Assembly (NCBI RefSeq): GCF_964355755.1 | Contig: NC_092676.1 | Location: 18,396,288-18,460,287 of the forward strand | From: Antedon mediterranea | Taxonomy: Eukaryota > Echinodermata > Crinoidea > Comatulida > Antedonidae | DNA length: 64,000 nucleotides | Reading direction: 5' to 3' | In this document: in pieces, positions 9,421 through 31,100 of the stretch | Position numbering within the stretch: position 1 is the first letter of the stretch | Layout of the letters: each line of letters begins with the position of its first letter | The notes under the pieces: generated by a model | The model's database searches: none | What the model was told of the DNA's origin: nothing | What the model saw: the letters and a program-made list of their open reading frames with translations, nothing else | Made by a program: the position numbers and the translations under genes

Positions 9421-10083
9421 ACTTCAAAATCTAAAATCAACATAGTCCTGATAATATTAGCATTAATTTCCGTATTCCAAAATGTTTGGGATGTCCATCC
9501 CCGAAAAGAAAAACTGGCGACGCCCATGCGGAGTTATGGATTTTATTTTTGAGGTCTAATATTGACGGATATATACGTAAGCAAGTTTCGGAATTGATTT
9601 TTATGTAAGGATACATATTTGCTAAATTGATTACAACGTCATTTCCCCAAACAGGTGTTTGTGACAATAAGGCCAAGTATCTGTATTTTTATTTCCAAAT
9701 AAGGAAATTGTTTGCACAGACAGGATAATGTACAACCTAGGATTAATAGTAAAAAAAGTTGCAACCACAGAATTTGTGTGAACTCTTACATTGTTTTCAT
9801 GTCAAAAAGATGTTTACTGAAATGAGATTACGGATTGCTGCAATGTTAAACCTCACCTAAATTGATTATTTACATTAACAAATAGTTCAGTTGATTTCAT
9901 AAAAAATGCCCTTTCACACCCGGAAGCGCAAAACGAAAACAAGTTTGGTACAGGTAGTAACTGGATCTCGAACTCCATATCTTGTATCACCTCCACTAAA
10001 AACTAGTCTTTTTGATGTTTTTTTCTTAAATTTAATTATTTATATAAATATTACTTTCGTTATATAAATATTACTTCCATTGT
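9421..10083. other. 3' flank of CNOT11, no gene seen
   Basis: This follows the CNOT11 stop codon and probably holds its 3' UTR. No further coding exon was recognised. The minus open frame at 9437-9676 has no family resemblance. Confidence 0.4.
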
Positions 10084-13000
10084 TCAAGATTTTGTTTCAG
10101 TTTTCTTGGCAGAAGTTGTAGGTGTTGGCTGTTGTTCACTGTCTAAGGTCTTTAGTAATCGAAAGAGTCCAGCTGCTTCTCGTATATGACTAAATTCAAT
10201 GCAGAATGCTTGCATCTCAATAAACAAATCCTACCAAATACATGACAAAAATATGTATTACAGAAGCCAATATAGTAGAACTTCTATCAAGGGGACAGAC
10301 ACCTTTGGTTTCTAAAGCAGGTACTTTTAATGGATGTCCTCTGAATAAAGGCCAATTTACACAGACGAGCGGTAACGGTAAGCGGAAAAACCACATAGCT
10401 TGTCCCACGTAGAATCTGTTTTTATCGTGAGCGGAAACCTACCATCGGCCCCGCGTTGTGTGTAAATGATCATAAGGAATAACATAGATTTATAGAGATA
10501 TATATACTTTTATTACTGCTCGTCTGTGTAAATTGGCCTTAAACGTATATTGCCCTTCGTCCCTTTCATATTACAATCATAGACCTTTAAAAGGTCTATG
10601 TTAGAATAAGGATGTCCGCTGAACAGAAGTGTCCCAAAGAATTTAGTTATTTGCCTCCTAAACTTTAATTTGGTCAAATGTTTGATTTGAACTAATTGTA
10701 AGTAAACTTGGTTAATTAATATCTTTAGTCTGCTTAAGTTGACAAGAAAAACATCAATAATCAGGAATTGGTATTAAGAAACTGGAAATTACTGAATTAT
10801 CATAAAAATTATAAAATTAAATACCTTAACATTGATGACTTTATTTCTAATCAAAGACTGAAGAAAAACACAGACCTATAACAGAAATGCTATTGTTATA
10901 TTTTATTGTTCAAAACAAGGATTAAACTCTGTCTACACTATCAAACTAGTTAGTGATATGACATCATCATATATGGGCACATCACATTTTTTGTCACACA
11001 AAGTTTGATAGTGTGGACAGAGCTTCAGTGCATTAAAAGAAAATTGTGGGCATGCAGTGAAGTTGTGATGTGATTTCCCACTCTATTTCTTGACACCGCT
11101 TTTAACCCTTGACCTCAATATGTTAATGAATTGTGGGTGTATACTTATTCACAAACTATTTAGATTTATCAATCAATAAGTATTGAACATTTTAGAAATT
11201 TGAAACTGTTTTTCGAGACAATTTTAAATATTATCAGCTGTGCAAATAAAGACTTCATATTGACAACTTTCACAAATCAATAAAAATCAATCCAGCGAAT
11301 ACAGTATTTCCAAGGGTATTGCAAAATTTCATAAACGTTTTATAATTGTAAATTTATTTTGTGTCAAGGAGAAAGTAATTGGCCAGATGTTTTGCTCTAA
11401 TCTACAAAGGTACCCCCCAGAATGCAACTACCACTCTATTGGCAGAATACCTGTTAAGGCCCATTTACACTAAGGCGATAACGATCTACGATAAAAAGAT
11501 AAATATGCATTTTTCATACCTAAAACAAAAGAATTAAGAAAGTTTTCATCCTAGAACTATAGGATTATCATCTATGCTGCCTTTGATAAAAATAATATTT
11601 CCACACGTCCAATCAAATGACGTCATGATTAGTAAGAGCAATAATATCGTTACAATACAATTATGATTTTATTGTTTTTGACATCATTTGATTGGTTTTT
11701 CAAAAATAATATTTTTATCAAATACAGCATACATGATTATCTTACAGTTCTAGAACAAAAACTTTTCTAATTTCTTTCGTTTCATCTAAGAAAAATTTTT
11801 ATTCATTTATTTATCGTTATCGCCCTAGTGTAAATGGGCCTTTTTTCCATTGGACTGAAATCCAACAGCGCAAGCTCAGTGGTCTAGAGGAATGAATACC
11901 AGGCTGGTGATTCGGAGGTAGTGGATTCAAGTCCCACCGAGAATTTTTTCTTCTCAATAACTTACATAAGAACATTTTGTATCATCAATCGGAATCATTG
12001 CTTTATGCATATTTTATGAAGTATTTAAAAACTTACTAATCGTACTAATCTGTTCTGCATGTACTTGTCACGAATTGTCTCGCATGTTGAGATACAGTTA
12101 GAAATATAAAGGTGTACAAACTCTTGTGGTAATTCAACAGCCTGCAAATTATTAAATGGATGATTAAATATAACCACCATTCTAACATTAATTTATATCT
12201 ATTATAATTTATAATTGAGACATGACACTTTACACAATTTTATGCCAATTTCTCTAGTTATAGTCAGGATGGTTTTGTATTTTTTTCCGCATAATTTTCA
12301 ATTTTATTATCCATGTAGATTACAAAGAGTAATTCATTTTCATACTTTTTTGCTTCTTAACATCAATAGTTGAATGTGAAATAGTAAGGATAATTTCTAG
12401 CCAGCCTAACCACTTCTTGTTGGTATGCAGATACCCTACCATAAGCTCACCAGGACTTTCATATTATAAACCCTCCCACACTTTCAATATAATATTTATT
12501 CGGCAAAAGTTCTTAAAAGTATGTTTTACTTTTTATCATGCCAGGAGCAAGAAATAGGCATGAGCCCAAACAGAAAACTGCTCTTATTACCAATACAGTA
12601 TATAATTAAAATTTGTTTGATACTTTAAAGTTAATTTTAAATAGTCGTTTTTTATTCATATTCCGCATAGCAATTTGACCTCCTGTCATGCTTTGCTGGT
12701 CAGATACAAAACAGAAGACCTAGGCAAGTTTACATCTTTCACTCTCTGCGGGTGAAATCATATATTGCAGGCAACGGTTGTACACTGCATAGTCTGTGGG
12801 AGGTGTTTTATTATCCAATGAGAAGCGTTCTAATATAGACATTTGGTTTGTGTCATTGCAGGGCCTTGCATCATCAAAACTAATTAAAAATACTGTTTCA
12901 ATTTTTACTAACCTACATTTCTACCCCATATACTTAGCTACGACCTTGACTTACATTCGTTAATCTGTTAACTACTTCCATAGAATGCAATGACATTTCC

Positions 13001-25100: not shown

Positions 25101-28100
25101 CCTATAGGCAAAATCATCACATGATCGGGAATGAGACCACCTTTTGCAAGAGCAACATATGTCTGTAATAAAGAAGAACATAGTGAATTAGGTTTTACAT
25201 TTAATAACAGTGAACATAATTGGTCTTAAGAACTCATTTACCCTTATAATTTGAGTGTCAGTTGACATTGTGTAAACTGCTGCTTGATTTGGGACAGCTT
25301 ACTAAAACATTAGGATTTCTGCAGCCAAAAAATGCACTTATCCTAGTTTTTATTCTAGTTTTTATTTAAACTTTATTTATAGAGGGTAACTCTTCCAGCT
25401 GGACAAATTAATGCCGGTTGATATTCAAGGGCCCTCTTAAATTCAATAAAATACATTACGATACATTACTATTATATAATTATATGTCTTTTTTAATTTG
25501 TCGTTTTTTAATTGTTCATAGTTCATTCAGTAATAAATTTTGCCTGACTAATATCTTAAAACTTACCGTTGTTCCAACACTGACTACTAAATGTTTTTCA
25601 ACTTCTGGGCTTCCAAGACAGAACCAACAAGGACCATTTGCTTTAGCTGTTGATCATAGTATTGTTATTAGGTTTTTATCATATCATGTTTATTTTTCAT
25701 ATAAATTTATTTTGGAATTAAGTGTGTTAATACTGCTTCTAATAACATGTTCTTAGTTTTGATGGATCTATGCTTTTACTACCACATACTAAAACATATT
25801 GTAGAATCAAATGTGACTATAATGAAAGGCTTCCTAATCCATTTCATGTTATATTTAGTTTGTGATTTGAAAACAACTACTGTTCAGAACATTAGTGTAA
25901 CTTTAAGTAAATCTCATCTCTCATTTCAACCACTAAATAAAAAACTTGTGACGTCAAGTGAATGAAACAGATAGTTTATATCAACTGAAAACACTTGGGC
26001 TGGCCCAAACTCACTCTTGGACGGGTTCAAACTATCCCTTGAATATGGAAAGCCAAACCCGCCAAAAATACATAATACATACCATCCACCAATAATTAAT
26101 TCGTACAAAATTCAAACCATCCAATATTATCTCATGCAGTTCAATGAAAACTTAAACCATTCACCTAGTATCTACACCATCCAATACAATGTGTGACCAT
26201 CTACCACTAGCCCAAACGACAATACGCCGAACAAACTACCCATAACACAAACCATCTAAAGAATGTTGAGCCCAGGCAGCAATAATTGAATTAATCTAAC
26301 GTTAATACAAGTATATATTAGCCAACTCATTTATCAACATTTCATGTAGTTCATGAACATTTCAAACAAAGCATCTTAATTTTAGTTCATCGAATTATAA
26401 TTCTAATTCATTGCCTGTTTTATACACCGTTCGTCTGTTCAACAGTTGAAACAACTGTTTTGCACACGATACGCCCGTTCGTGAGTTCAAACCATGATAT
26501 TTGAAGCATCGACTTTCCAAACAGCGATTTTTCGCACCGAACGTATTTTCTTGAGTTAAAGTGGTTGCATTTCAATCACTTGCTTTTGATTGGCCAGTAT
26601 TACACACCGTTCGCTTGTTCGTGATTTCAAACCATGATATTTGAAGCATCGACTTTCCAAATGGCGATTTTTCGCACCGAACGTATTTTCTTGAGTTAAA
26701 GTGGTTGCATTTCAATCACCTACTTTCGATTGGCCAGTATTACACACCATTCGCTTGTTCGTGATTTCATGTGATAACATTTCATTCGACAATTTTTCAA
26801 ACGTTAGTTTTTGACTCCGCTTACGTATATGTCAGTTGATATACTATTTTTTAATTTTCATACTTTCCATAGTCAGTTTTGTACATCATTCGCATTTACG
26901 CATGTAAAGTGTAGATATTCCATTCGACAAGTTTTAAAACGGTAGTTTTTTTTTTATTGTTTAATTGTAACTGTTGGCGCCGATTTTATATTGGGGGGGG
27001 GAGGGGGAGGTGTTCGGTACTGAATTTGAACAGTACACATTTTTAAATATGGTACCTCTACACGTTGGGTTATTTAATGCATGATGAATAACAAAATAAT
27101 TATGATTTAATAACAATACACATGTTTTTATTTAATCCATGATAAATATTCGTAAAATATGTTTATTCGGATATTTATTAATTACGTCTCCACTATAGTC
27201 TATAAAACATAATGAATGTCATTATTTCAAAAAAATAGGCCTACCCCGTAAACAAATGGAAGCTTCTCAACAACAGTTAATTTATGCATCATAGAGAGCA
27301 CAGAGCAGAAAATGGCTCTAGACCGGCCTCATCTAGCAGCCGCCGCACACGCCCGCCGCGTAGGGAGGGGAGAGAGAAGCACGACACCAGCTCTCTCTCT
27401 CCTCTGTCTCTCCCCCACAGGCGGGCGAGGTGGGTGTTATACCCCGGGCCTAGTTGTGGGGCGTAAAATTGTAACAGGCCCACAAGCTAAATTATATTAT
27501 TTCATTCTGTTTTTTTTCCATTATTTAAGTTTGTGATAATGTGTGTAACCAGGGAGATGTAAAATAAATTTATAAATTAGTTTACATCTCCCTGACCTGT
27601 GTGTGTAACGTAGGCCTAGGCCTAAGTAAGTGTCATACAGTCGTAAAGTTGACATTCATCCCCCGCCCCTCAATATTAAATCGGCGCCAACAGTTACAAT
27701 TTAACAATAAAACAATAAATGTGCGAAAAACTACCGTTTAAAACTTGTCGAGTGGAATATCTACACTTTACATGCGTAAATGCGAATGATGTACAAAACT
27801 GACTATGGAAAGTATGAAAATTAAAAAATAGTATATCAACTGACATATACGTAAGCGGAGTCAAAAACTAACGTTTGAAAAATTGTCGAATGAAATGTTA
27901 TCACATGAAATCACGAACAAGCGAACGGTGTGTAATACTGGCCAATCGAAAGTAGGTGATTGAAATGCAACCACTTTAACTCAAGAAAATACGTTCGGTG
28001 CGAAAAATCGCCATTTGGAAAGTCGATGCTTCAAATATCATGGTTTGAAATCACGAACAAGCGAACGGTGTGTAATACTGGCCAATCAAAAGCAAGTGAT

Positions 28101-31100
28101 TGAAATGCAACCACTTTAACTCAAGAAAATACGTTCGGTGCGAAAAATCGCTGTTTGGAAAGTCGATGCTTCAAATATCATGGTTTGAACTCACGAACGG
28201 GCGTATCGTGTGCAAAACAGTTGTTTCAACTGTTGAACAGACGAACGGTGTATAAAACAGGCAATGAATTAGAATTATAATTCGATGAACTAAAATTAAG
28301 ATGCTTTGTTTGAAATGTTCATGAACTACATGAAATGTTGATAAATGAGTTGGCTAATATATACTTGTATTAACGTTAGATTAATTCAATTATTGCTGCC
28401 TGGGCTCAACATTCTTTAGATGGTTTGTGTTATGGGTAGTTTGTTCGGCGTATTGTCGTTTGGGCTAGTGGTAGATGGTCACACATTGTATTGGATGGTG
28501 TAGATACTAGGTGAATGGTTTAAGTTTTCATTGAACTGCATGAGATAATATTGGATGGTTTGAATTTTGTACGAATTAATTATTGGTGGATGGTATGTAT
28601 TATGTATTTTTGGCGGGTTTGGCTTTCCATACTTGAACTAGCCAAACTATTCAAATGGGTTTGTCTAAACTATCCCTTGGACTGACCCAAACCAATTATT
28701 GGGCTGTCCCAAACTTCTTTTCAGCAAAGTTGGATGTTTATAATGCATTTTATATGGGACATTATAAACATCTTGGTTTTGAGATTCAGAGAGTCTGATT
28801 TTGAAAGTGTTGAGTATAAATACATGCACTGATTTAAATAAAACCTGTATGTTTTAAAGTAGCTTACGGTGCTTCTTAACCTTTCTTGGTCCTGATCCAC
28901 CTTGGTGATCTCCTTGCCTCTTTTGACCTTTTTGAGGCTGCTTTGTTGAAAAGAAGTATTGGTTTGACATATCTGTCTCCTGCAAATAATCAAATAACTT
29001 TTTAATACACAAACATTTGGAAAACTTAAGCTCTGTCTACACTTTCAAACTAGTTTGAAAAAGAAAGTATGATGTGCCCAAATTTGGTGGCGATATGCCC
29101 AAATATGGTAGTGATAAAACATCATCATGTCCATATATATATATTGTCACATAAAGGTTGATAGTTTTGACAGAGCTTTACTCTGCAAACTAAATTGTGT
29201 TGCACACAATGTTCTCATTATACCAAACCAAGTACAGTACTTACATTTGATTCTGTTTGCCTTTCTGAAGATGTAGTTGAGAAGGGACATTCTGTGACAT
29301 CTTGTGGCTGAACTATTAGTTCTGCATGAGTAAGTTTGCTCATTGGTACTATATTGAATGCATATAAATACTAGAAAAAAACGTTAAAAACCTATTTTAA
29401 TATTCTGGGTTTCAATTTAATGGCAGGCCACGCGAGTGGCAAGAGAGTAAGCATTATGGTGTAATGGTAAGGATATTTATTTTATTTATTTACTTTATTT
29501 TATTTCAACAATATTTAATGAGGGTGGTCCATCCAGCATCAGCTGATCATTAGGGACCCTCAAACAATACAAACAGTAAATACAAAATAAACTATAAAAA
29601 CACAAAATTAACAAAGATAAAAAAATAAATATATATATATAAATATAAATATACAGTATGCCTACAATGAAAGAAGGAAAAAAAGAAAAAAAATCAGAGA
29701 GAGAGAAACAGGTGTTTTTTCAAAAGAGATTTAAAGGAGGAGAAATTGTAAGAGTTACGAATGCTTAAAGGTAGAGAATTAAAGAAAGGAGGAGTATTGA
29801 AACTAAAAGAAAGTTTAAAGATTTCAAGGTAAGGACGAGTCGTATGTGCCATAAAGGTAACTTTTTATGTTTACTTTTTTCTCTCTGCTTTTTAATTTCT
29901 TATATCTCTTTATTTTTATGTATGTTTGATTGCAAACGTTTGTAATTTCTTTGGATTGTTGGAGTTTTCTTGTGTATTATGTCCATTGTTTGTATCATTA
30001 GGCAAGATACTATAGTCTCATTGCCTCATTCTTTAGATGAGACATAAAGCTGTTGGTCCAGTGTATCTACATTGCACATTTGTATGAAAGAGTCATGGAT
30101 TGTCTCTCAGTGTGCTTGAGATATAACAGATACTACATCAGAGGTTCCAAGTTGAAAAAACTAAATTTCTGTGGGCGTTATTATAAACAGTGCCATGAGT
30201 GTTAATTTTGAAATAACATGTTTGTTTTGCGAACATGTTGTTTTATTTTAGATGAAAAATCTCTAGGCTAGGCCTAGCTATCCTAGGCCTAAATCGTTGA
30301 GTCTGAATTTTTGGATAGACGAGAATCTGGATAAAAAATTCGAGAAAAATCTGAAAAACTTGGGACCTCTGCTACTGTACATACAGTTTCTTATGTTCAG
30401 ATATTCATGACATATTGTTTATTTCAACTGACCTTTTTCTTTGCTATATTTGCAACACTAGCTAAGCTAATAAACCTCGTCACATGTCGTTGCTTGTCTT
30501 TTAAAACCTGGTGATTCCTGTATGGCAACCTTTCATAGTAGACGTCATCTAACCCTGCAAAGTGGTACCTCGGTTGTAAGGCTAGTGCAAGACCTGCAAG
30601 TTTGCTTGATCCTGATTGGTCAGATCCTGGTCCGTCCTAAAAATTGTTATTCAGACAATGAAGCAATTATTGTACATTAGTTATTATACAGTATGGTGTG
30701 ATGCCTACTGTACACATAAACATACTGCCAGTCATGTGATAATCTTTGCAGATTCCACCTATTGTACTTACTGGTTTTATGGCAAACCTCTCAACATTCC
30801 GTGGCCACTGTGACGTTATCAAAACATCAACTCCTTTAAAAGACGAGTTTGAAACTAAGGGCATGGCCAATTCATTGATGTCTTGTTCTGTGAAGGTGTG
30901 TTGTTCTCTTGGACCGGTACCCTCTTGCTCAACCCCGCTAAGGTATGCTACCTGCAGACCCGACATCATGTTCATGACACCTTTCCGACCTAAAAAAAAT
31001 GTTTAAAAAACAAAAGTAATTATTTGTTTTTATTTGATCTATTCAATATAGTCCTAAAACAATTTAAATAATACAACTATTAAAAAATGATTGAAACAAC

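Follow-up and report, generated by a model that had tools for sequence, protein, structure and literature searches.

The palindrome at positions 26044-28631 of the window (the whole 64,000-nucleotide stretch of Antedon mediterranea DNA analysed here) is a non-autonomous copy, shortened by internal deletion, of an IS3EU/GingerRoot-superfamily DNA transposon with terminal inverted repeats (TIRs) of ~970 bp, recently inserted in an intron of a CWF19L1-like gene, a reading to which we assign a probability of about 0.96. Assignment to IS3EU/GingerRoot was made by comparing the termini, the target site duplication (TSD) and the transposase domain with published descriptions. IS3EU elements are described as having TA..TA termini, 6-bp TSDs, an integrase-like DDE transposase and non-autonomous derivatives (PMC10045372, PMC12730594), with the termini given as TAYGG..CCRTA (PMC12730594); published trees do not separate IS481EU from IS3EU/GingerRoot. 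The TATGG..CCATA ends, 6-bp TSD and rva_4 transposase found here thus place the element in this superfamily rather than among TU-type foldbacks. This recent intronic copy, a non-autonomous IS3EU element with long TIRs, is of a type already known; it differs from the described members in that its TIRs reach ~970 bp and contain arrays of 140-bp repeats. An odd 2.6-kb palindrome is in this way classified as a recent insertion, with likely autonomous partners found in the same genome.

The 2588-bp element is flanked by perfect 6-bp copies of CTTGAA at 26038-26043 and 28632-28637. Repeat finding and self-BLAST placed the left TIR (961 bp, plus strand, starting TATGGAAAGCC) at 26044-27004 and the right TIR (972 bp, minus strand, finishing GGCTTTCCATA) at 27660-28631, with 97.8% identity over the whole arms by self-BLAST. 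Direct comparison of the outer arms, 26044-26938 and 27737-28631 (895 nt each), gave 2 mismatches, and the inner extensions, 26946-27004 and 27660-27718, were 88% complementary by repeat finding. The loop separating the arms (27005-27659, ~655 bp) consists of ~60 bp of left-TIR-internal and ~600 bp of right-TIR-internal sequence of a large element. An earlier note on this DNA had described two inverted arms of about 970 bp with few differences around a loop of about 650 bp, in agreement with these measurements; the ends it gave to the foldback, 26039 and 28636, take in most of the TSD and were adjusted to those of the element proper. It had also reported internal direct repeats of about 147 bp rich in CGTTCG, of which the repeats and motifs were recovered but with a period of 140 bp: the left-arm tandem array (26463-26769, plus strand) holds 2.2 copies with CACCGWWCG-type motifs and the right-arm array (27906-28198, minus strand) holds 2.1 copies, the units being 92-96% alike and containing CGTTCG/CGAACG motifs.

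Relatives of the element are spread through the genome. A terminal 462-bp query gave dozens of matches across 354 Mb, and 76 termini were found genome-wide at ≤3 mismatches in a 30-bp terminal pattern (reversed-pattern control, 0). For TSD counting, 25 complete copies were excised from the genome; 24 of these have an exact 6-bp TSD, unrelated in sequence among copies, the sole exception being copy C1_30.63. The termini TATGGAAA..TTTCCATA are identical among complete copies, with TATGG..CCATA ends at all those examined. Three copies sit in other repeats, whose uninterrupted relatives have one copy of the 6-bp target and no element. No paralogous empty site was found in the genome for the window insertion, whose flanks are single-copy there. 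Being multicopy and bounded by TSDs, the foldback cannot have arisen by chance.

Three large copies, C1 (11.6 kb), C4 (13.1 kb) and C5 (10.7 kb), share the arms of the window copy and encode a transposase matching Pfam rva_4 (PF24764, E=1.8e-65) and, far more weakly, rve (E=1e-4), in which the catalytic residues have D-36 residues-E spacing (DD36E). Compared with PDB sequences, the transposase core had no more than sub-threshold matches to retroviral integrase. In alignment, the window copy corresponds to positions 1-1022 and 10078-11630 of the C1 large copy, which is most simply explained by a single internal deletion of ~9.05 kb relative to the large element, with its junction near 27063-27065; siblings of the window copy have additional loop indels. 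The C1 and C5 large copies are identical over the 819 nt of transposase exon stretches compared and, when the exon for the C-lobe of a neighbouring HECT gene (see below) is included, differ at 0 of 1065 nt, against 36 of 8508 sites in the remaining sequence; this contrast suggests constraint, though not strongly. In the C5 large copy (C5:9453838-9464497), which keeps the transposase, the HECT N-lobe exons are missing. Among other rva_4 families, five 9.9-kb regions were searched for a pair of TAY ends with a 6-bp TSD, and none was found.

The window copy differs from its nearest sibling (C5_12.41) by 2 substitutions in 2586 sites, another pair (C4_1.90 and C6_10.84) differs at 0 of 2959 sites, and eight subfamily members are 0-18 substitutions apart over ~2.3-3.0 kb. 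The first two comparisons point to a very recent burst. Several siblings, inserted at different loci, have the same differences between left and right arms, for example at arm position 705, so arm identity was mostly inherited from a founder copy; the sequences indicate that arms are carried along at transposition and not remade at each insertion. Left-right differences average 2.7 in the window subfamily and number 6 in the C1 and C4 large copies, and in these the two arms resemble each other more than either resembles its counterpart in other lineages (10-17.5 differences), which argues that gene conversion or a comparable process homogenised the arms of some founder lineages; the C5 large copy has 15 such differences and another subfamily 12. 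The earlier proposal that near identity of the arms reflects recent insertion or ongoing gene conversion is therefore retained as to recency, from the sibling comparison, and revised as to conversion, homogenisation being ancestral and the identity inherited.

Kinship to the sea urchin TU foldbacks, suggested in the earlier note, would make this a classical TU/FB-type foldback transposon, related to Mutator or P elements and with TSDs of 8-10 bp. The architecture fits: the window element has the long TIRs with internal tandem repeats by which foldbacks are recognised, and foldbacks such as FB, TU, Tetris and Galileo have in common very long TIRs, tandem repeats within them and a middle that varies (PMC4079207). 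Known foldbacks, however, have mostly Mutator-type relationships, with TSDs of 8-10 bp in Tetris (PMC4079207), whereas 24 of 25 copies here have a 6-bp TSD, and the transposase encoded by the corresponding large copies is of the rva_4 integrase type. The termini, the length of the TSD and the transposase thus place the element in IS3EU/GingerRoot, and we consider a TU/FB origin very improbable. According to a proposal cited in PMC4079207, different transposon lineages have repeatedly given rise to foldback structure; the window family is a clear case in which the lineage was IS3EU instead of Mutator or P. Polinton/Maverick elements, of which the palindrome might be a member or fragment, likewise have a 6-bp TSD, long TIRs and an integrase-type core, but the window family ends in TA..TA and its core fits rva_4 much more closely than rve. 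Polinton/Maverick elements are marked by protein-primed DNA polymerase B and capsid genes; the subset of frames scanned from the 11.6-13.1-kb copies gave no match to a polymerase or capsid, and the longest open frame found among those scanned in the 13.1-kb copy was 195 aa; hardly any weight is left for this option. Near-identical inverted arms are a known problem in assembly and prone to misassembly, and a palindrome can be imagined to arise by local duplication and inversion without transposition. Yet >20 loci show this structure, differing in flanks, TSDs and private mutations, and the genome contains three exact empty sites. As general explanations, chance, local inversion and an assembly fault confined to one locus are excluded by the TSDs at 24 of 25 copies together with these empty sites, and an artefact is scarcely credible.

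The host intron (25647-28867, minus strand, GT..AG, phase 1) is 3221 bp long, of which the element and one TSD copy make up 2594 bp; before insertion it would have been about 627 bp. Its flanking exons, one encoding ..QYFF..KVKKH and the next matching CwfJ_C_1, join in frame across the intron from 28867 to 25647, which bears out the placement of the foldback inside a CWF19L1 intron; the match of the downstream exons to CwfJ_C_1 is consistent with CWF19L1 as the host gene. Also upheld, as a prediction, was the very long double-stranded intron RNA: the computed fold has an MFE of -1877 kcal/mol, against -584 kcal/mol for a shuffled copy. Such a transcript, with its predicted near-perfect stem of ~900 bp, might have been adopted by the host, the hairpin regulating expression of the CWF19L1-like gene via editing, small RNAs or splicing. 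Against this stand the extreme youth of the copy and the fact that the stable hairpin follows from the long TIRs of the element, which are seen family-wide, making it a by-product; adoption is unlikely.

For the IS3EU/GingerRoot copy proposed here, a course of events can be outlined. The DD36E transposase of the 10.7-13.1-kb copies would bind the TATGG..CCATA ends in trans, and probably the 140-bp subterminal repeats as well. Insertion by a 6-bp staggered cut would have produced the CTTGAA duplication, the element landing recently in the intron of the CWF19L1-like gene, where its presence is presumably neutral. Extra transposase sites are held in the arm tandem repeats of Galileo, as cited in PMC4079207, and by likeness to these the 140-bp repeats, which form subterminal arrays, are plausibly transposase sites too. 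In one sibling (C8_7.48) exactly 140 bp have been lost from one arm.

The window copy itself is ordinary; the HECT gene of its larger relatives is worth a look. On the strand opposite the transposase, in tail-to-tail orientation, the large copies hold a gene for a HECT-type E3 ubiquitin ligase, of which the exon with the catalytic-cysteine region (C-lobe) matches PF00632 (E=8e-9) and the N-lobe exons, searched alone, gave only a weak match to AREL1. The pairing is systematic: of the 49 HECT clusters in the genome, 21 have an rva_4 cluster within 8 kb, and in 20 of these pairs the orientation is tail-to-tail (for example C4:14267857-14269945, C8:19944197-19946144 and C9:15661611-15663551), where about 0.14 pairs would be expected by chance. 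The 20 loci are not independent events, since part of them are copies of the same family, and several diverged families are included. The literature searched, of partial coverage and with Repbase outside it, contained no report of HECT in IS3EU and nothing relevant on HECT with DNA transposons; HECT is not taken up in the coelacanth paper. Fungal TET-bearing IS3EU members contain TET/JBP and alpha-kinase genes (PMC12730594), whereas the large copies here have HECT tail-to-tail with the transposase. We raise, tentatively, the possibility that the IS3EU transposons of this animal form a lineage that systematically carries a HECT accessory gene, which might adjust how stable the transposase or host restriction factors are, and that spreads mainly as long-TIR foldbacks whose arms are periodically homogenised. 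If general, the association would be a new accessory function in a superfamily that has been little studied, much as its fungal members have TET/JBP and alpha-kinase genes.

Three further loci were recorded. At C2:4892303-4896729 a left half-element (positions 1-1254) adjoins a complete inverted copy (C2:4892603); no TSD can be made out among the flanks gcgata, atagaga and acgttg, and simple nesting of one insertion in another therefore does not account for the arrangement. A 7.1-kb copy at C8:953101-960198 has matching termini and TSD, and its arms pair with each other only piecewise; it has probably been rearranged or invaded. Within the window, positions 29017-29189 hold a small MITE-like inverted repeat, AAGCTCTGTCTACACT.., and the transposon copy at C2:13466947 has inserted into a similar repeat.
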